DNA from: Gemmatimonadota bacterium
GTDB taxonomy: Bacteria > Gemmatimonadota > Gemmatimonadetes > Gemmatimonadales > GWC2-71-9
Length of the DNA: 36,643 bases
NCBI GenBank assembly: GCA_003221995.1
Contig: QHUR01000043.1
Coordinates: forward strand, 1-36,643
Direction of reading: 5' to 3'
The position numbers were made by a program, and so were the translations under genes. Under the pieces are notes generated by a model. That model did no database searches. It saw only the letters and a program-made list of their open reading frames with translations, and had not been told where the DNA came from. Shown in pieces: positions 7,144-23,997 of the stretch; positions within the stretch are counted from its first letter, which is position 1; each line of letters opens with the position of its first letter.

Positions 7144-7170
7144 TTAGCACTCAACACCGGTGAGTGCTAA
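7144..7170. promoter_or_regulatory. CIRCE operator (HrcA binding site)
   Basis: TTAGCACTC (7144-7152) and GAGTGCTAA (7162-7170) form a perfect inverted repeat with a nine-base spacer, identical to the classical CIRCE consensus. It lies 66 bases upstream of groES. HrcA bound here represses groESL until heat stress; hrcA itself is not in this window. Confidence 0.97.
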
Positions 7171-7182
7171 GAACCGCGCAGG

Positions 7183-7211
7183 AATCTCGCCGCGGTCGGC
7201 CGACGTGTCAA
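7183..7211 (-). promoter_or_regulatory. candidate housekeeping promoter of groESL
   Basis: On the minus strand a perfect TTGACA (7206-7211) is followed after 17 bases by GAGATT (7183-7188), a weak -10 match. Transcription would start near 7176, just before CIRCE, the usual geometry for HrcA repression. The -35 box contains the stop codon of the upstream gene. Confidence 0.5.
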
Positions 7212-7660
7212 GGGGGGGAAATCGGCCGCCGCAGAGCCGCCTGGCTGCGTAGCGAATCGGCGAGCGCCTGGGCCCGGGAGTCCGGGGCGGGACCGAGCGA
7301 GTCCTCCGGTACCGAGACCGCCGCCACGATGACCCCGTTGCGCGTGTCGGCCAGCCGCAGGTGCAGCCAGTGGGTCTCGGGCGGGGTGTCGTCCCTCGAG
7401 GTGAAGATGATCACGGCCGCGGTGGGGGCGCTGCCTCCGCGGATCTTGCGCCGCACCGTGAACCCCCGGCGCCGCAGCGCCAACGCGAGCCGGTCGCTGA
7501 GCGAGTCCTTGTTCGTGATCAGGATGTCGTAGCCGCGCAGGGAGGCGGGCGGACGGCGCCCGGAGCCCGTGGTGCAGCACAGCCCAAGTAGGCCAGATGC
7601 TAAGAGGCTAAGATGCAAAGCGCGTGCAACGTAGCCTCTTCGCCTCTGGCTACTGGTCAT
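7208..7660 (-). CDS. small exported protein, possible lipoprotein, unknown function
   Basis: The 150-aa product has a signal peptide: charged n-region (SQRRRGYVAR, residues 4-13) and hydrophobic h-region (HLSLLASGLLGL) ending in C28-C29. The cysteines suggest a lipoprotein, but the residue before C28 is Leu, so the lipobox is imperfect. The mature part (about 40-140) looks alpha/beta, with GYDILITNKDSLSDRLALAL, AAVIIFTSRDD and GVIVAAVSV. I do not recognise the family. ATG 7660 overlaps the stop of the NlpC/P60 gene as ATGA. Its signal-peptide codons are made of inverted octamer repeats (7591-7651), and its stop codon lies inside the groESL -35 box. Confidence 0.7.
   Translation of the reverse strand: MTSSQRRRGYVARALHLSLLASGLLGLCCTTGSGRRPPASLRGYDILITNKDSLSDRLALALRRRGFTVRRKIRGGSAPTAAVIIFTSRDDTPPETHWLHLRLADTRNGVIVAAVSVPEDSLGPAPDSRAQALADSLRSQAALRRPISPP
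7591..7651. repeat. inverted pair of octamer arrays encoding a signal peptide
   Basis: Octamers of the type GCTAAGAK run from 7591 to about 7618. The same family in opposite orientation (TAGCCTCT, TCGCCTCT) runs from 7632 to 7651. The arms 7591-7610 and 7632-7651 pair over 20 bases with three mismatches and a 21-base loop; 7602-7610 and 7632-7640 match perfectly. In the mRNA the hairpin base is seven nucleotides after the start codon of the exported-protein gene. Confidence 0.85.
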
Positions 7661-8631
7661 GGAATTATCCGCCTCGCCCCCACCCACCGATTGATCCAGT
7701 AGGCGCCATCGGGATCGTGGACCTCGAGGAGCGAGAGCTTCACCCCATTGCTCGAGCTATGGATGAACTTGAGCTCGCCGACGTACATGCCCACGTGGGT
7801 CACCCCGGATCCCGGCGCGGCCGAGAAGAGCAAGATGTCGCCGGGCCGCAGCGCCTCGATGACGGGGGCCACCTCGGCGCCGGCCGAGGCCTGGGCGCGG
7901 CCCATCCGCGGCAGCCGGATGCTATGCTGGCCGTAAGCGTACTGGATGAGCCCCGAGCAGTCGAACCCGTTTCCCGCCGTGCCGCCCCAAACGTACGGCG
8001 TGCCCAGGGCGTCGAGCGCGGTGCGCACGACGTCCGCCGCGTTCCCCGTGATCGTGGCCGGCGGCTCGGGAGGCAGCCGCGGCGGTGAGCCGTAGCCACC
8101 GCTCCCCCGTCCCCCTTCCCCCCTCCCCAGCCTTAGCGTGATCCCGACCGCGCCGCTGAATCCCGTGCGGGCGTCGGAGGTGCGCCAGAAGCCGCGGGGC
8201 CCCCGGTCTTCGACCCGGTAGCGTGCCTCGACGCCGAGCGCGAAGCGCGTAACCGGCCGCCACTCGAGGCCGCCGCCCATGCTCCACTGAGCGGCGAGCT
8301 CCTGCGTGGTCGTATCCGTGGAAAGGCCCAGCGCGACGCCGGTGAGTGCGTACGGCCCGAGCGCGCGGCGGCCGCGGAACGCCTGCAGCTCGTAGGCCAG
8401 CCCGTAGAAGGCGCGCCGGCGGCCCAGCGAGTCGTGAAGGACTACCTGCGCCCCGAAGCCGTGCGTGAACGGCCCGCCCCAGTGCGCGCTGGTGCGGAAT
8501 TCGTAGCTGTCCGAGCGGTTACCGTTGTACCAGCGGCCGCGGTGGAACTCCCAGTCGCGACCCTGGGCGGCGAGCACTGCGGGAATGCAGAGCGTGAGCG
8601 GGAGCCACCCGAGCTCAGTCGGCTGCCGCAA
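7657..8631 (-). CDS. exported protein with barrel-like N-terminal domain fused to an NlpC/P60 endopeptidase
   Basis: This 324-aa protein starts with a signal peptide (about 1-23, ending VLAAQG). Residues 25-170 are alternating strands with aromatic and Gly residues (SYEFRTSAHW, LGPYALTGVALGL, FALGVEARYRV), resembling a small outer-membrane beta-barrel. A Gly/Pro linker (171-195) leads to an NlpC/P60 domain with catalytic C225 in NGFDCSGL, H279 in THVGMY and likely third residue H291 in FIHSSS. The enzyme should cut peptidoglycan stem peptides. The start is TTG 8631: no better start precedes the signal peptide, and AGGAG lies ten bases upstream. It overlaps the upstream gene by 17 bases and the downstream gene by ATGA. 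Confidence 0.85.
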   Translation of the reverse strand: MRQPTELGWLPLTLCIPAVLAAQGRDWEFHRGRWYNGNRSDSYEFRTSAHWGGPFTHGFGAQVVLHDSLGRRRAFYGLAYELQAFRGRRALGPYALTGVALGLSTDTTTQELAAQWSMGGGLEWRPVTRFALGVEARYRVEDRGPRGFWRTSDARTGFSGAVGITLRLGRGEGGRGSGGYGSPPRLPPEPPATITGNAADVVRTALDALGTPYVWGGTAGNGFDCSGLIQYAYGQHSIRLPRMGRAQASAGAEVAPVIEALRPGDILLFSAAPGSGVTHVGMYVGELKFIHSSSNGVKLSLLEVHDPDGAYWINRWVGARRIIP

Positions 8632-14317: not shown

Positions 14318-15437
14318 CGAGCACGCCCCGGTACAGCGTCTCGTAGTGCGGGACGATCCGCTCAGTCGAAAAGTCGCGCGCCCGCGCGGCGGCGCTCGCG
14401 CCGAGCCGGCCGTGCAGCGCGCCGTCCCGCAGGATCGCGAGCGCCCGCTCGGTCATTTCGTCGACCGCCCCCGCCGGTGCGAGGTAGCCCGTCTCCCCGT
14501 TCACGACGACCTCGGGGAGGCCCCCCACGGCGCTCGCGATCACGGGCACGCCGCACGCCATGGCCTCGAGGGCGGCCAAGCCGAACGATTCGGTCTCCGA
14601 GGGGAGCAAGAACAGGTCGCTCCCCCGCAGCAGGTCGGCCACCTGATCCACCTTGCCAAGGAACCGGACATCGTCGCCGAGGCGCAGGCGGTCCGTCTCC
14701 TGCTCCGCCGCGTCGCGGTCCGGCCCATCCCCGATGAGCACGAGCGTGGCGGGGAGGGCCTTCCGCACGCCGGCGAAGATGCGCACCACGTCGCGCACGC
14801 GCTTGACGGGGCGGAAGTTCGAGACGTGAGTCAGGATCTTGTGGTCTGGAGGGGCCAGGGCGCGTCGGCAGGAGCCATCCCGGGCCGGATAGTACTCCGC
14901 GGTCGACACAAAGTTCGGGATCATCTGGACGTCGCAGTCGACGCAGCCGAAGGCGCGGTAGGTCTCGTCGCGCAAGTACTGCGACACGGCGGTCACGCGA
15001 TCGGATTGCTCGATCGAGAACTTCGTGATGGTGAAGTACGAGGGATCCTGTCCCACGAGCGTGATGTCGGTGCCGTGCAGCGTGGTGACGACCTTGAGGT
15101 CGCGCTCCGTCTTGAGCATCTGCTTGGCGAGCCAGGCGGTCGCGGCATGCGGGATGGCGTAGTGCACGTGCATCAGCTCGAGCTCCTCGCGCAGCGCGAC
15201 CTCGTGCTGCTTGACGGCCAGCGCGAGCGCGTAGGGCGAGTGCTCGAACAGCGGGTAATCGGCGGTCACGACCTCGTGGAAGGTCACGCGCTCGGCGAAG
15301 CCGCCCCGCAGGCGGAACGGGCTCGCGTACGAGATGAAATGGACCTCGTGTCCGCGCCGCGCGAGCTCGAGCCCCAGCTCGGTGGCGACGGCTCCCGAGC
15401 CGCCGTAGGTGGGATAACAAGTAATCCCAATGCGCAT
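14310..15437 (-). CDS. bshA: N-acetyl-alpha-D-glucosaminyl L-malate synthase (bacillithiol pathway)
   Basis: This 375-aa GT4-family glycosyltransferase joins GlcNAc from UDP-GlcNAc to L-malate, the first step of bacillithiol synthesis. Characteristic segments are [18 protein letters not shown] (5-22), HVHYAIPHA (90-98), [16 protein letters not shown] (118-133), SNFRPVKR (206-213) and the nucleotide-sugar-binding [19 protein letters not shown] (281-299). The match to BshA is strong over the full length. bshB and bshC are not in the window. ATG 15437 has a short-spaced GAGG (15442-15445) that is partly formed by the heptamer array filling the gap after miaA. Confidence 0.95.
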
Positions 15438-15444
15438 GAGACCT

Positions 15445-15482
15445 CAGACGTCAGACATCAGACATCAGACATCAGACGTCAG
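15445..15482. repeat. five tandem heptamers CAGACRT at the miaA/bshA junction
   Basis: CAGACGT, three copies of CAGACAT, then CAGACGT and CAG run without interruption from 15445 to 15482. The miaA stop codon (15472-15474) lies inside the array and the array ends at the bshA Shine-Dalgarno. It is inverted relative to the array at 15568-15597. Confidence 0.95.
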
Positions 15483-16440
15483 CACGAATGGTGCACCAGC
15501 GCCTATGGATCATTGCGGCAAGCTCCTCGGGCCGGGCTGTCGCATCGAGAGTCCAAACGTCGTCCGACTGATATCTGACGTCTGACGTCTGACGTCGCAG
15601 TTGATTTCGGAACCACGTCTCCTGCCGTTTTGCGTACCGCCGCGTCGCCGCGACGATGGCGTCCCGCAGCCGCGCTTCTGGCAGCCGCCCCTCGAGCGTC
15701 GCCACGACCTCACGATAGCCCACGCCGTCCAGTCCCGGCGCCCGCGCGGCAACACCGCGGGCGAGCAGCGCCCGCACCTCGGCGACCAGGCCCGCGGCGA
15801 GCATCTGGTCCACCCGCTCCCCGATGCGCCGGTGCAGCGCGTCGCGCGGCAGCGTCAGATGAATGTACCACGGCCGCATGATCCCGGTCTCGCGCGCCTC
15901 GCGCTGCCACCAGCTCAAAGCCCGACCGGTGAGCAGCGCCACCTCGATTGCGCGTGCCGCCCGCTGGCGCCCGCCGCCCGCGAACCGCCTGTCCAGCCGC
16001 GCCGCCCAATGGGCCAGCCGCGTGACGGGCAACCGCTCCCCCCAGGTCCGCAGTCGCTCGCGCCGCACCGGGTCGAGCGGCGGCTCGCGGAATAGCCCCT
16101 CTGCCAACGCGCGCACGTAGAACCCGGTTCCGCCGACGACGACCGGCTCGCGCCCGTCGGCCCGGACGCTCGCGAGCCAACCGGCGGCATCCCGAGCGAA
16201 GCGGCCCGCGCTGTAGCGCTCCCCCGGCTCGATCAGATCGAGGCCCAAGTGGGGCACGCGCACCTGCAGCTCGCGCGGCGGCTTCGCCGTGCCGATGTCG
16301 AGCCCGCGGTACACCTGCCGCGCATCGGCCGAGATGACGGTGATGAGCGTGCGGGCACCGAGCCCTACGGCGACGGCGGTCTTGCCGACGCCGGTGGGGC
16401 CGACGAGGACTGGGACGAGAGGGAGGTCAGGTGCGACCAA
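15472..16440 (-). CDS. miaA: tRNA dimethylallyltransferase
   Basis: This 322-aa enzyme transfers dimethylallyl to A37 of tRNAs that read UNN codons. Motifs: P-loop GPTGVGKT (14-21), SADARQVYRGLDIGTAKP (37-54), GGTGFYVRAL, the QRAARAIEV segment and C-terminal RRYAKRQETWFRNQ. The usual Ser in SADSRQ is Ala, and NPQR reads GRQR. After RNQL the protein continues with RRQTSDVRYQSDDV, encoded by an inverted copy of the heptamer array at its own stop codon, then WTLDATARPEELAAMI, the normal type of MiaA tail. TTG 16440 overlaps the mutL end by 14 bases and follows GAGGAG at long spacing. Confidence 0.95.
   Translation of the reverse strand: MVAPDLPLVPVLVGPTGVGKTAVAVGLGARTLITVISADARQVYRGLDIGTAKPPRELQVRVPHLGLDLIEPGERYSAGRFARDAAGWLASVRADGREPVVVGGTGFYVRALAEGLFREPPLDPVRRERLRTWGERLPVTRLAHWAARLDRRFAGGGRQRAARAIEVALLTGRALSWWQREARETGIMRPWYIHLTLPRDALHRRIGERVDQMLAAGLVAEVRALLARGVAARAPGLDGVGYREVVATLEGRLPEARLRDAIVAATRRYAKRQETWFRNQLRRQTSDVRYQSDDVWTLDATARPEELAAMIHRRWCTIRADV
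15568..15597. repeat. three to four tandem heptamers (TCTGACG) inside the miaA C-terminus
   Basis: Three perfect TCTGACG heptamers occupy 15574-15594, preceded by a degenerate copy at 15568-15573. They are the reverse complement of the CAGACRT family at 15445-15482. Pairing of the two arrays would give an imperfect stem of about 30 bases around an 85-base loop. They encode RRQTSDVRYQSDDV in MiaA. Confidence 0.92.
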
Positions 16441-18121
16441 ACCGTCTCGCTAACTCCTCTTTGGGCAGCTGCACGATGGTCGGCCGCCCGTGCACGTCGT
16501 GGGCCGGCAGGGTGGCGCCGAGGACACGCACCACGAGCTCCCGCATCTCATCCTGCTCGAGCCGCTGGCCGGCCTTGATCGCGGCGCGGCAGGCGAAGGT
16601 GGCGGCGAAGCGCTCCAGCCGGTTCGCCAGGCCGCCGAAGCGGCCGCCCGCGAGATCGGCCACGAGCTCCTGCAGGCAGCGCGTCGCGTCGAACCGTGGA
16701 TGCGGGTTGGGCGCCGTGTGAACGACCACCGAGCGGCCCGAGAACGGCTCGATCTCATACCCGACGCGCCGCAGCAGCTCCCCGTGGGCGTCCACGGCCT
16801 CGAGCTCCGCCGCCGAGAAGTCGAGCGTCAGTGGCAGCAGCAGGCGCTGCGCGGGGGCGCCGTCGCCCGAGAGCTGGCGCATCACGGTCTCGTATAGCAC
16901 GCGCTCGTGCGCCGAGTGCTGATCCACGATGGCGACGGCGGTGTCCGTCTGGAAGAGGATGTACGTGTCGAACACCTGAAGGAGCGGAGGGGTCAGGTGT
17001 CGGGTTTCGGGTGTCAGGGACTCCCCGGGGAAGAGTTCCGGGGCTGCGGCGCCGGGCATCAAGGCACCGAGACCGGCCCAGGGCCCCCCGACACCTGACA
17101 CCTCACCTCCGACACCGAGCGGGGAGGCCGCGGCGAGGGGCCCGAGGGCCCCGCGCACCGCCTCCTCGACCACCCGTTCCACGAAGAACTTGTCGCGGAA
17201 GCGCACCTCGAGCTTCGTCGGATGGACGTTGATGTCCACCGCGTCTCCCGGGAGCTCGAGGAACAGGATGAGCGTCGGGCGGTCGCCGGGCGCGATGGTC
17301 GAGCGGTACCCCGACTCCCCCGCGCGCAGGATGAAAGGATCGCGGATGGGGCGTCCCCGCACCAACACGTAGCCTTTGCGTCCCGCGGGCTTCGCCTGCG
17401 CGGGCCGCTGCGCGAAGCCCCGCACCTCTAGTGGGCCCTCGCGGTGGCCGATGGGGAGCAGCGTGTCGGCGAGCTCCCGCCCCCACAGCTCGTGCACGCG
17501 GTCGATGGGTCGCGCCGCCGGCCCCACGTCGAGCAGCGCACGCTCGTCGCTTGCGAGCGCGAAGGCCACGTCGGGCCGCGCGAGCGCGAGCGCAGTCAGG
17601 GCCTCCACCACGGCGCGGGTCTCAGTCTGCTGCGCGCGCAGGAATTTCCGCCGGGCGGGCGTGTTGAAGAACAGCGCGCGCACCGTCACCGTGGTGCCGC
17701 GCTGGCGCACCGCGTCCTCCACGGCCATGCCCTTGCCGCCCACCAGCCGAACCCGGCTGCCGCTCCGGCCGTCGGGCGAGGTCTCGAGCTCGAAGCGCGA
17801 CACGGACGCGATGGCGGGGAGCGCCTCGCCGCGGAAGCCGAATGTGCCGACCCCGATCAGGTCGGCCGCGCCGCGGATCTTGCTCGTCGCATGGCGCGCC
17901 AGCGCGAGCTCGGCGTCCTCGCGGCTCATCCCCTCGCCGTCGTCGCTCACCCGGATCAGCGTCTTGCCGCCGTTCTCGATGGCGACGCGTACGGTGCGCG
18001 CACCCGCGTCGAGCGCGTTCTCGACGAGCTCCTTCACCACGGACGCCGGGCGCTCCACCACCTCGCCGGCGGCGATCTGGTCGGCCACCTGCGCCGGGAG
18101 CACGGCGATCTTCGGCGTCAC
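16427..18121 (-). CDS. mutL: DNA mismatch repair protein MutL
   Basis: This 564-aa GHKL ATPase couples MutS mismatch recognition to strand removal. The N-terminal ATPase has IAAGEVVERPASVVKELVEN with catalytic E34 and N35, DDGEGM (60-65), GFRGEA (95-100) and the FFNTPARRKF motif. The C-terminal dimerisation domain has endonuclease-type motifs: DQHSAHERVLYE (400-411), ACR (510-512), HGRP (544-547) and FGR (561-563). The Cys that normally begins C[PN]HGRP is Asp here (DVHGRP). The linker (about 331-381) is partly encoded by two inverted heptamer arrays. GTG 18121 overlaps the upstream Bat gene as GTGA. Confidence 0.95.
   Translation of the reverse strand: MTPKIAVLPAQVADQIAAGEVVERPASVVKELVENALDAGARTVRVAIENGGKTLIRVSDDGEGMSREDAELALARHATSKIRGAADLIGVGTFGFRGEALPAIASVSRFELETSPDGRSGSRVRLVGGKGMAVEDAVRQRGTTVTVRALFFNTPARRKFLRAQQTETRAVVEALTALALARPDVAFALASDERALLDVGPAARPIDRVHELWGRELADTLLPIGHREGPLEVRGFAQRPAQAKPAGRKGYVLVRGRPIRDPFILRAGESGYRSTIAPGDRPTLILFLELPGDAVDINVHPTKLEVRFRDKFFVERVVEEAVRGALGPLAAASPLGVGGEVSGVGGPWAGLGALMPGAAAPELFPGESLTPETRHLTPPLLQVFDTYILFQTDTAVAIVDQHSAHERVLYETVMRQLSGDGAPAQRLLLPLTLDFSAAELEAVDAHGELLRRVGYEIEPFSGRSVVVHTAPNPHPRFDATRCLQELVADLAGGRFGGLANRLERFAATFACRAAIKAGQRLEQDEMRELVVRVLGATLPAHDVHGRPTIVQLPKEELARRFGRT
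16992..17019. repeat. four tandem heptamers of GTCRGGT type in the mutL linker
   Basis: The heptamers GTCAGGT, GTCGGGT, TTCGGGT and GTCAGGG follow each other exactly from 16992 to 17019. On the coding strand they encode LTPETRHLT of the MutL linker. An inverted array of the same family lies 66 bases away at 17086-17113. Confidence 0.9.
17086..17113. repeat. four tandem heptamers, inverted partner of the 16992 array
   Basis: CCCCGAC, ACCTGAC, ACCTCAC and CTCCGAC run from 17086 to 17113, the reverse-complement orientation of the GTCRGGT family. They encode the GVGGEVSGVGG part of the MutL linker. The pair could form an imperfect 28-base stem with a 66-base loop. Confidence 0.88.
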
Positions 18122-22157: not shown

Positions 22158-23140
22158 CAGGGCACCCGCACGGCGAACGTTCCCGAGAGCACGATCTCGA
22201 GCGCCAGCCCGATCAGCCCGAGCGCGAGCGGCCAGCGATAAGCTTCCTCGAAGCGGCGGTACACCACCTGCTCCACCGTCGATTTCTCGAGGCGGTTGAT
22301 CTCCGCAAAGATGTGGCGCAGCGACTCGCTGTCCGTCGCGCGGAAGTAGCGACCGCCCGTGCCCCGCGCCACGTCCGTCAACAGCGCCTCGTCGATCTCG
22401 ACCGGCATGCTCTGGTAGCGCAGGGCGCCCCCGGGCCCCTGCCCCGTCGGCACCGGCGCTTCGCCCTGCGTGCCGACGCCGATCGCGTAGATCCTGATCC
22501 CGAACGCCCCGGCCGCCTGGCCCGCGGTTCGCGGATCCACCGTGCCGCGGTTGTTCACGCCGTCGGTGAGCAGCACGATCACCTTGCTCTTCCCCGGCGC
22601 GCGCCGCAGCCGGTTCGCGGCGGTCGCGATCGCCGTGCCGATCGCGGTGCCATCTTCCAGCATCCCGATGCGGAGACCCTGCAGGGCCGCTTCCAGCACG
22701 GCGTAGTCCGTGGTGAGCGGCACCTGGGTGAGCGCCTGCGCCGCGAACGCGACCAGGCCGATGCGGTCGGACCGGCGCGCCCGCACGAAGTCGATCGCCG
22801 TCGCCTTGGCCACGTCGATGCGGTTGGCGGGCGCGAAGTCCTCGGCGAGCATGCTACTCGACAGGTCTACGCACAGCACGATCGAGATGCCCTCGCTGCG
22901 CGCCTCGATCCTGGCGGAGCCGAGCCGCGGACCCGCCGCCGCCACGATCCAGGCACCGAGGCACACGTTGCGCAGCTGGAGCGGAAGCCGCGCGATCCAG
23001 AGCCGCTCAGCCGTGCCCGCCGCCGGCCGGACGTCGCTCATGCGCACGCCCCGCAGCCGCCCCAGACGCCGCGCGCGCAGCCACCACCAGGCCGGCAGGG
23101 CCAAGAGGAGCAGCAGCACGAGCGGCCGGGCGAAGCTCAC
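22157..23140 (-). CDS. BatA-like von Willebrand A membrane protein
   Basis: The 327-aa protein has an N-terminal hydrophobic segment (LVLLLLLALPAWWWL), a second near LGAWIVAAAGPRLG, and a VWA domain with MIDAS residues in CVDLSSSMLAED, then LLTDGVNNRG and the GTAIGTAI threonine site. A C-terminal membrane helix (WPLALGLIGLALEIVLSG) closes it. This is the BatA architecture, a metal-dependent protein-binding domain held at the periplasmic face. GTG 23140 overlaps the preceding gene as GTGA, with GGGAG eight bases upstream. It works with the neighbouring MoxR ATPase and second VWA protein. Confidence 0.9.
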   Translation of the reverse strand: MSFARPLVLLLLLALPAWWWLRARRLGRLRGVRMSDVRPAAGTAERLWIARLPLQLRNVCLGAWIVAAAGPRLGSARIEARSEGISIVLCVDLSSSMLAEDFAPANRIDVAKATAIDFVRARRSDRIGLVAFAAQALTQVPLTTDYAVLEAALQGLRIGMLEDGTAIGTAIATAANRLRRAPGKSKVIVLLTDGVNNRGTVDPRTAGQAAGAFGIRIYAIGVGTQGEAPVPTGQGPGGALRYQSMPVEIDEALLTDVARGTGGRYFRATDSESLRHIFAEINRLEKSTVEQVVYRRFEEAYRWPLALGLIGLALEIVLSGTFAVRVP

Positions 23141-23997
23141 GGGAGGAACTCCCGGGCCAGCGCGCGCGCCCGCACGGCCAACGCCGCCACGTCCGTGCCG
23201 TGCGCCGACGCGAACTCCACGCGGTCGAGCTGCTCTACTACGGCGCGCAGCTCGCGCAGCGGGGCGTCGGGGCGCGCCCGCTCCACGACCGCCAGGCACT
23301 CGGTCGTGCTGAGCGCGAGGTTCGCCCCGGGGACCGTGTGCGCGATGGCGACGCGCAGCTGAAGCACCGCCCGCGCCGCGACCGCCTTGGGCTCCCCGGC
23401 CGCGAGCCAGCGGGCGTCGGGCACCTCAGGTTCCACTGGAACGTGAGGCGGCAGCGGCGGCGGCCGTGGCCGACGTCGACGCCAGCGGACCCCGGCCGCG
23501 AGGAGGCCCGCAGACAAGACGGCGGCGAAGGCCGCCGCCAGCGGGGTGCGCCGCTCGGAGCGGATCGGGGCGATCGCCGCCTTCGGCTCCGGCTGCCGCA
23601 CAGTGTCGGGGATGACGCTGCCGATCACGAAGGCGGCGGTGCCGCCGGGCAGCGAGTCGGCGCGTCCATCGGGGCCCAGGCGCCAGATGGGTGGCACGCT
23701 CACGGTGTGGGCCCCGGGCGCCCAGGCAGCGACCGGATAGCGCACGACCCAGCCGTCGGGGGAGGGACCGCGTCGCACCACGGGGTCGCCGAGCGGCTCC
23801 ACCCGCTCGGCTGCTTCGAGCTTGCCTGCGCGCACGCGCCAGCCCGGCAACGCGACCACGGTACGCTCGAGCCACACCGTGTCGCCGACCGTGGCGCCAT
23901 CGGGAGCGGCTACCCACCCCGCACCACCCTGCCCCGTTGCCAGTCGCCAAGACGCCAAGAGGCCAAGAAATGCAAACGCCGTGTGACGGCGATTCAT
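23137..23997 (-). CDS. Bat-cluster membrane protein with N-terminal extracytoplasmic domain (DUF4381-like position)
   Basis: This 286-aa protein has a signal peptide (MNRRHTAFAFLGLLAS, cut near ATGQ), a beta-rich domain (about 25-140) with GDTVWLERTVVALPGWRV, a membrane helix (PLAAAFAAVLSAGLLAAGV), an Arg/Pro-rich stretch and a cytoplasmic helical tail (about 195-286). The helix-plus-tail part matches the DUF4381-like protein usually found between DUF58 and BatA; the N-terminal domain I cannot assign. ATG 23997 overlaps the DUF58 stop as ATGA and its stop overlaps batA as GTGA. The hydrophobic core of the signal peptide is encoded by an octamer array (23945-23968). Confidence 0.75.
   Translation of the reverse strand: MNRRHTAFAFLGLLASWRLATGQGGAGWVAAPDGATVGDTVWLERTVVALPGWRVRAGKLEAAERVEPLGDPVVRRGPSPDGWVVRYPVAAWAPGAHTVSVPPIWRLGPDGRADSLPGGTAAFVIGSVIPDTVRQPEPKAAIAPIRSERRTPLAAAFAAVLSAGLLAAGVRWRRRRPRPPPLPPHVPVEPEVPDARWLAAGEPKAVAARAVLQLRVAIAHTVPGANLALSTTECLAVVERARPDAPLRELRAVVEQLDRVEFASAHGTDVAALAVRARALAREFLP
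23945..23968. repeat. three tandem octamers CGCCAAGA in a signal-peptide coding region
   Basis: CGCCAAGA at 23945-23952 and 23953-23960 and GGCCAAGA at 23961-23968 are contiguous. On the coding strand they read as LGLLASWRLA of the signal peptide. The family matches the octamers at 7591-7651, including the adjacent ATGCAAA sequence. No inverted partner is nearby. Confidence 0.92.

Follow-up and report, generated by a model that had tools for sequence, protein, structure and literature searches.

How did a palindrome made of tandem octamers come to occupy the first codons of a gene for a putative exported protein, and what does it do there? We addressed this question for a lipoprotein-like gene in the window (the whole stretch of DNA that was analysed, 36,643 nucleotides), which belongs to a Gemmatimonadota genome here called G000. 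In our judgement, with a probability of roughly 0.75, the block is one of many dispersed palindromes that are found across a clade of soil Gemmatimonadetes and have arms of facing tandem octamers; it lies in frame and has been co-opted as a signal peptide. The locus has the following features:

7208..7660, minus strand: lipoprotein-like exported-protein gene, 150 aa, without a Pfam match; its ATG at 7660 overlaps the stop of the upstream gene
7577..7660, minus strand: putative signal peptide, 28 codons, MTSSQRRRGYVARALHLSLLASGLLGLC, followed by Cys; the lipobox is degenerate (LGLC/C) in this genus
7625..7650, minus strand: palindrome 5′ arm (mRNA sense), GCCAGAGGCGAAGAGGCTACGTTGCA, coding for the charged n-region SQRRRGYVA
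7592..7617, minus strand: palindrome 3′ arm (mRNA sense), TGCATCTTAGCCTCTTAGCATCTGGC, coding for the hydrophobic core HLSLLASG
7595..7620, plus strand: octamer array, unit AGAGGCTA, 3 copies; octamers AGATGCTA-AGAGGCTA-AGATGCAA at 7595-7618
7632..7647, minus strand: facing octamer array, AGAGGCGA-AGAGGCTA, 2 copies
7657..8631, minus strand: upstream NlpC/P60 gene (PF00877, E 1.2e-27); its TGA (7659-7657) overlaps the ATG (ATGA)

Read on the minus strand from 7660, the gene starts with ATG ACC AGT AGC CAG AGG CGA AGA GGC TAC GTT GCA CGC GCT and continues with TTG CAT CTT AGC CTC TTA GCA TCT GGC CTA CTT GGG CTG TGC TGC, which together translate to MTSSQRRRGYVARALHLSLLASGLLGLCC. This reading confirms the claim of the initial annotation that one inverted octamer repeat encodes both halves of the putative signal peptide. 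The pairing over 20 bases with three mismatches described there was recovered as 17 of 20 positions at 7593-7612/7630-7649, and the seven nucleotides placed between the start codon and the base of the hairpin are ACCAGTA. A repeat search returned arms of 26 nt each (7592-7617 and 7625-7650) with 22 of 26 positions paired (85 % complementary) and a 7-nt gap. The 101 nt RNA fold of the hairpin has an energy of -42.4 kcal/mol (z -2.6), and 2 of 200 shuffles were equally good. The pattern GCTAAGANGCTAAGA, with up to two mismatches allowed, matched four times in the window, compared with 0.03 matches expected. Between the lipoprotein-like gene and groES/groEL lies a CIRCE-like operator, TTAGCACTC-N9-GAGTGCTAA (window 7144-7170).

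The palindrome could be a by-product of coding, with biased Arg-rich and then Leu/Ala-rich codons being complementary by chance, and the fold of G000 taken alone is no better than that of synonymous recodings (z -0.37). We find this explanation hardly credible, as these octamers are also found outside coding sequence, in non-coding spacers, and in frames other than this one, and the arrays are far above composition-preserving shuffles. Moreover, the arms co-change between genera, and for the orthologous starts in G069 and G085 the natural sequence has a much more stable fold than synonymous recodings (z about -5).

We collected orthologues of the lipoprotein-like gene using a six-member profile over 102 family genomes. 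They were found in 29 of the 102 genomes, with a readable 5′ end in 27. An ATGA or GTGA start over the stop of the upstream NlpC/P60 gene, with the frame open, was present in 25 of the 27, which supports 7660 as the right start codon, as the initial annotation had it. The signal lengths range from about 14 to 46 aa. The facing array follows directly after the start codon in 16 of the 27 orthologues and is absent in 11. Most of these arrays consist of octamers of the kinds GCCACGAC, GGCACGAC and GCTACGAC; the unit in G000 is GCTAAGAG, which differs from the main consensus, and the orthologues in G106 and G115 have a longer, less regular unit. The arms of the relatives read TPRRHVAR (5′) and LGVVAS (3′), those of G000 SQRRRGYVA and LSLLAS. 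A simple charge/hydropathy plus Cys rule for a lipoprotein signal fits most orthologues, the lipobox being degenerate in G000 and G001. The likely start of the G064 orthologue falls within the loop, which we counted against our preferred explanation.

When orthologues were compared, as the initial annotation had proposed, the block turned out to be present or absent as a whole in close relatives. The signal peptide of G016 has 21 residues, MKRRLFRQLGIALTGNVVALGC, and lacks the repeat; in its congeners G069 and G085 the signal peptide is 36 residues long and includes the palindrome. On a gene tree of 22 of the 27 sequences, which is weakly supported, the hairpin is patchy and about six changes are needed. 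The spacing from arm to arm at this site is exactly 28 nt in three genera, which suggests common descent of one element at the lipoprotein site.

Alternatively, the hairpin could be a selected functional RNA (a translation gate, pause or processing site) and the peptide incidental. Several orthologues have the base of the stem 7-10 nt past the start codon, pairing is maintained despite sequence change, and the z values of G069 and G085 given above would fit such a role. However, the gating of translation suggested in the initial annotation is not supported. In the congener G001 only 19 of 27 pairs of the hairpin are left (synonymous-codon z +2.8), yet the gene and its signal peptide persist. 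No hairpin is present in 11 orthologues, and most of these have unusually unstructured starts. The fold of G000, no better than its recodings, also speaks against selection on the RNA. Moreover, palindromes of this class also lie between genes and within tgt, positions at which a gate for a start site would make no sense, and an Rfam search gave zero matches. A functional RNA is in our opinion quite improbable, and we continue with the reading of a dispersed palindrome co-opted as coding sequence.

The scan of the home genome covered 692 kb including the window, about one third of G000. The genomes are draft MAGs and gene calls came from a home-made gene finder. Once two all-N contigs had been removed, we identified about 15 period-8 arrays and 61 period-7 arrays in the 692 kb, versus about 2 of either period in composition-preserving shuffles, and many of the arrays face one another as inverted repeats. 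The exact window octamer, when searched in the G000 genome, was found in the window copy only; looser patterns and the unbiased period scan revealed the others. The presence of the octamer family elsewhere in the genome, a check put forward in the initial annotation, was thus established for arrays of the same general family.

Beyond G000, the consensus element GACGCCACGACGCCACGTTGCACGA...inverse with up to three mismatches was recovered in 20 of the 102 family genomes, representing 8 of 41 genera, with a maximum of 26 matches per genome, and the reversed control of GACGCCACGACGCCACGTTGCACGA in the same 102-genome search gave zero matches. An exact search of 84,980 genomes resulted in 42 stretches, of which Gemmatimonadetes MAGs contribute 41. 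The remaining one (L279) is in an ANGP1 bin (Terrabacteria) that comes from similar soil samples, and its contig may be a misbinned Gemmatimonadetes contig. In six genomes, 62 element places at 33 distinct loci were inspected; 47 are intergenic and the rest lie within genes or at gene ends, and signal peptides are therefore a minority context. All six readings of the consensus arms are free of stop codons. In DnaE, TrpG and AroB only one arm of the element was matched, and in DnaE and TrpG the matching peptide resembles motifs conserved in these proteins; none of the three was counted as an insertion.

Other repeats of related form were seen as well. Facing heptamer arrays (CATCAGA / TCTGACG) lie about 90 nt apart at window positions 15435-15482 and 15574-15596, just upstream of a bshA-like start and extending into the C-terminus of a miaA-like gene. 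A heptamer-like facing inverted repeat with the purine-rich arm first is located within a mutL-like gene (window 16992-17011 / 17087-17106). The palindrome TGGGGAGTGGGGAGTGGTAC / GTACCACTCCCCACTCCCCA, slightly varied, is present in three copies with the same 38-nt spacer (L044:10514, L052:1992 and L081:5902), and GACGCTGAGTGGATGTGAGG-type palindromes in six copies (L035, L061, three in L077, and L078); both are further dispersed families.

Dispersed palindromes with a patchy presence would also be expected from a classical REP or MITE moved by RAYT or another transposase and inserted independently at each site, and Y1_Tnp genes were found in 14 of 18 genomes searched. However, the octamer element was not found near or flanking any of the Y1_Tnp loci retrieved, which also distinguishes it from the REPtron (REP with RAYT). 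The 28-nt spacing common to three genera favours inheritance in place, and the tgt site, occupied across many genera, favours inheritance over repeated insertion. We consider separate insertion at each site unlikely. Several Y1_Tnp loci (L257, L265) have a different, GGGCGCAAGCCCGG-type palindrome nearby; palindromes of this type are possibly the true REPs of these genomes.

Four further exported-gene families carry the element at the N-terminus, with signal peptides that are partly or wholly made of it, so that together with the lipoprotein-like gene the N-termini of five exported-gene families are affected. The element-bearing N-termini are MKSRCTTLRRHVARGTALVAVLAILGVVASWRRGAAQ in the BatD-like family, MVSRCTTPRRHVARSTRTAVRAGALVWLGVLASWNAVSAQ in the OMP-like family, MTVTRRHDATLQLSRRGFLTLGASSLFFTSWNMASWR in CcmH, where the arms flank a twin-arginine-like core, and MTRRQTPRRHDAKLHEVDRRAFVKVGLAGAGAALAAACG in Oxidored_molyb, where one arm precedes such a core. 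The labels BatD-like and OMP-like were derived from gene neighbourhood and a look at the sequence, neither having a Pfam match. The starts of several of these four genes overlap or adjoin the preceding stop. The BatD-like gene is found in the window:

23137..23997, minus strand: BatD-like exported-protein gene; begins MNRRHTAFAFLGLLASWRLATGQGG, with an octamer array in the signal peptide
23945..23968, plus strand: second octamer array, GCCAAGAC type, single orientation, in the signal peptide of the BatD-like gene

Its orthologues in G026, G115 and G064 have the element in the signal peptide. One frame pair is common to all three genes without a twin-arginine-like motif (the lipoprotein-like gene and two further ones), in which the 5′ arm reads PRRHVAR or LRRHVAR and the 3′ arm LGV[VL]AS. 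The initial annotation had named two findings that would speak against it, namely the same signal peptide encoded by non-repetitive codons throughout the clade, or a genome with no octamer family elsewhere; because the frame pair recurs in the two further genes, neither describes the situation here. In several apparently cytosolic genes (L203, L214, L193, L211 and L227) the element lies upstream and the likely start comes after it, the contrast between exported and cytosolic genes being judged by eye.

A different coding context is provided by tgt (tRNA-guanine transglycosylase). Five genomes (G026, G087, G119, G115 and G065) have the element inserted in frame into a linker, and comparison with a solved Tgt structure places an insertion of 22 residues exactly at the element. 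At the same codon, other genera have facing period-8 arrays with the units GGAACGAT, GACGGAAA, GGTCGGAC, GACGGGCG, GTCGGCAC and others (L319-L348). Several of these units have a GGA core and are therefore considered variants, not unrelated words. There are apparent short in-frame remnants, KASHDTQ, KASSDTQ (G000 and G016) and AVVASCDQ (G106), and the tgt of some relatives has no insert. The arms co-change between genomes (permutation P 0.0006). In this, tgt behaves as the lipoprotein site does, with position fixed, symmetry conserved and the unit changing.

At the lipoprotein site itself, arms within a genome match better than arms across genera (exact permutation P 0.006, 8 genera; permutation P 0.046 without the genus of G000). 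Another regularity concerns polarity. For the array-type inverted repeats in the 692 kb of G000 (about 14 units; L024-L082 and the window), the purine-rich arm comes first in 31 of 31 cases, versus 30 of 64 among the other inverted repeats. As a general explanation of the signal peptides, with a charged purine arm and a hydrophobic pyrimidine arm, polarity turned out to be weak, the 3′ arm being more hydrophobic in 19 of 31.

We propose that the palindrome probably arose as neutral or selfish DNA and would persist where its translation is harmless or useful. Symmetry and period would be maintained by template switching between the arms and by slippage in steps of one octamer, even as the unit drifts from lineage to lineage. 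Co-option would take place where the arms happen to read charged (5′) and then hydrophobic (3′). In the lipoprotein-like gene the element, in frame between the start codon and the Cys, would be translated and serve as the putative signal peptide, and similar recruitment may have occurred in at least four other exported-gene families. We infer translation of the element, working export and the mutational mechanism from these patterns. A broader reading, to which we give somewhat less than even odds, is that these are palindromes inherited at fixed sites, genic and intergenic, which keep position, period, inverted symmetry and purine-first polarity, have their octamer replaced between lineages, and were repeatedly recruited for the charged and hydrophobic parts of export signals.

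Parts of this picture are already known, i.e. in-frame palindromes in Rickettsia, REPs in ORFs and a dispersed repeat within a signal peptide in Yersinia. In the sections of the reports cited here, RPE are palindromic repeats of 105-146 bp, present also in intergenic regions, which have an open frame, are inserted in frame into unrelated genes, among them those of housekeeping enzymes, and are tolerated by the product (PMC2229807, PMC3733652). The Gemmatimonadetes element is likewise a palindrome dispersed in multiple copies and inserted in frame in unrelated genes, and absent from close homologues (tgt, lipoprotein-like gene). It differs in the phylum of its hosts, in its octamer-arm architecture and in sequence, that of RPE being Rickettsia-specific and the exact element occurring only in Gemmatimonadetes and the one ANGP1 bin; the same sections do not describe tandem octamers, unit turnover at fixed sites or a two-arm signal peptide for RPE.

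The initial annotation regarded the block as a new route to export signals. This needs some qualification, as the RU-2 / YPAL repeat was reported in 2007 to be part of the signal peptide of the Yersinia exported protein YPO1552 (PMC2759123); the part that stands is the use of two arms and of multiple genes. RU-2 is clearest in a single Yersinia gene, where the unit is MITE-like and 168 bp long; that case involves neither two facing octamer arms nor several gene families across genera.

REP/BIME sequences (GTAG- and CGTC-tagged), as summarized in the consulted part of one source, are short dispersed palindromes, mostly intergenic and some within ORFs, and the CGTC type has no linked transposase, stems of 8-9 bp and loops of 4-5 nt (PMC3733652). 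CGTC is found in the octamers, but most arms here measure 20-37 nt and enclose spacers of 0-36 nt, a comparison made by description. Template switching homogenises inverted-repeat arms (PMC8794818, PMC8604942), and Nematomorpha mitochondria have long inverted repeats within coding genes (PMC6649704); as far as the excerpts of these papers go, such hairpins and coding palindromes are not dispersed octamer arrays and are not described as export signals. Heptamer and octamer satellites of prokaryotes, such as the octamer dimer (AGGGGAGT)2 of Mesorhizobium ciceri, are short units in tandem that are known from several taxa, and the cited portion describes neither a facing arrangement nor a coding role (PMC6749651).

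To our knowledge, a signal with both halves supplied by a single palindrome, recurring across several genes and genera with unit turnover at fixed sites, would be new. The element would be a concrete example, repeated in several genes, of how a non-coding repeat can acquire a defined function in a protein, here that of a putative export signal. At fixed coding sites, the lipoprotein start and tgt, the structure persists with differing sequences, and these two sites let template switching, slippage and selection be tested by comparison of related genomes.
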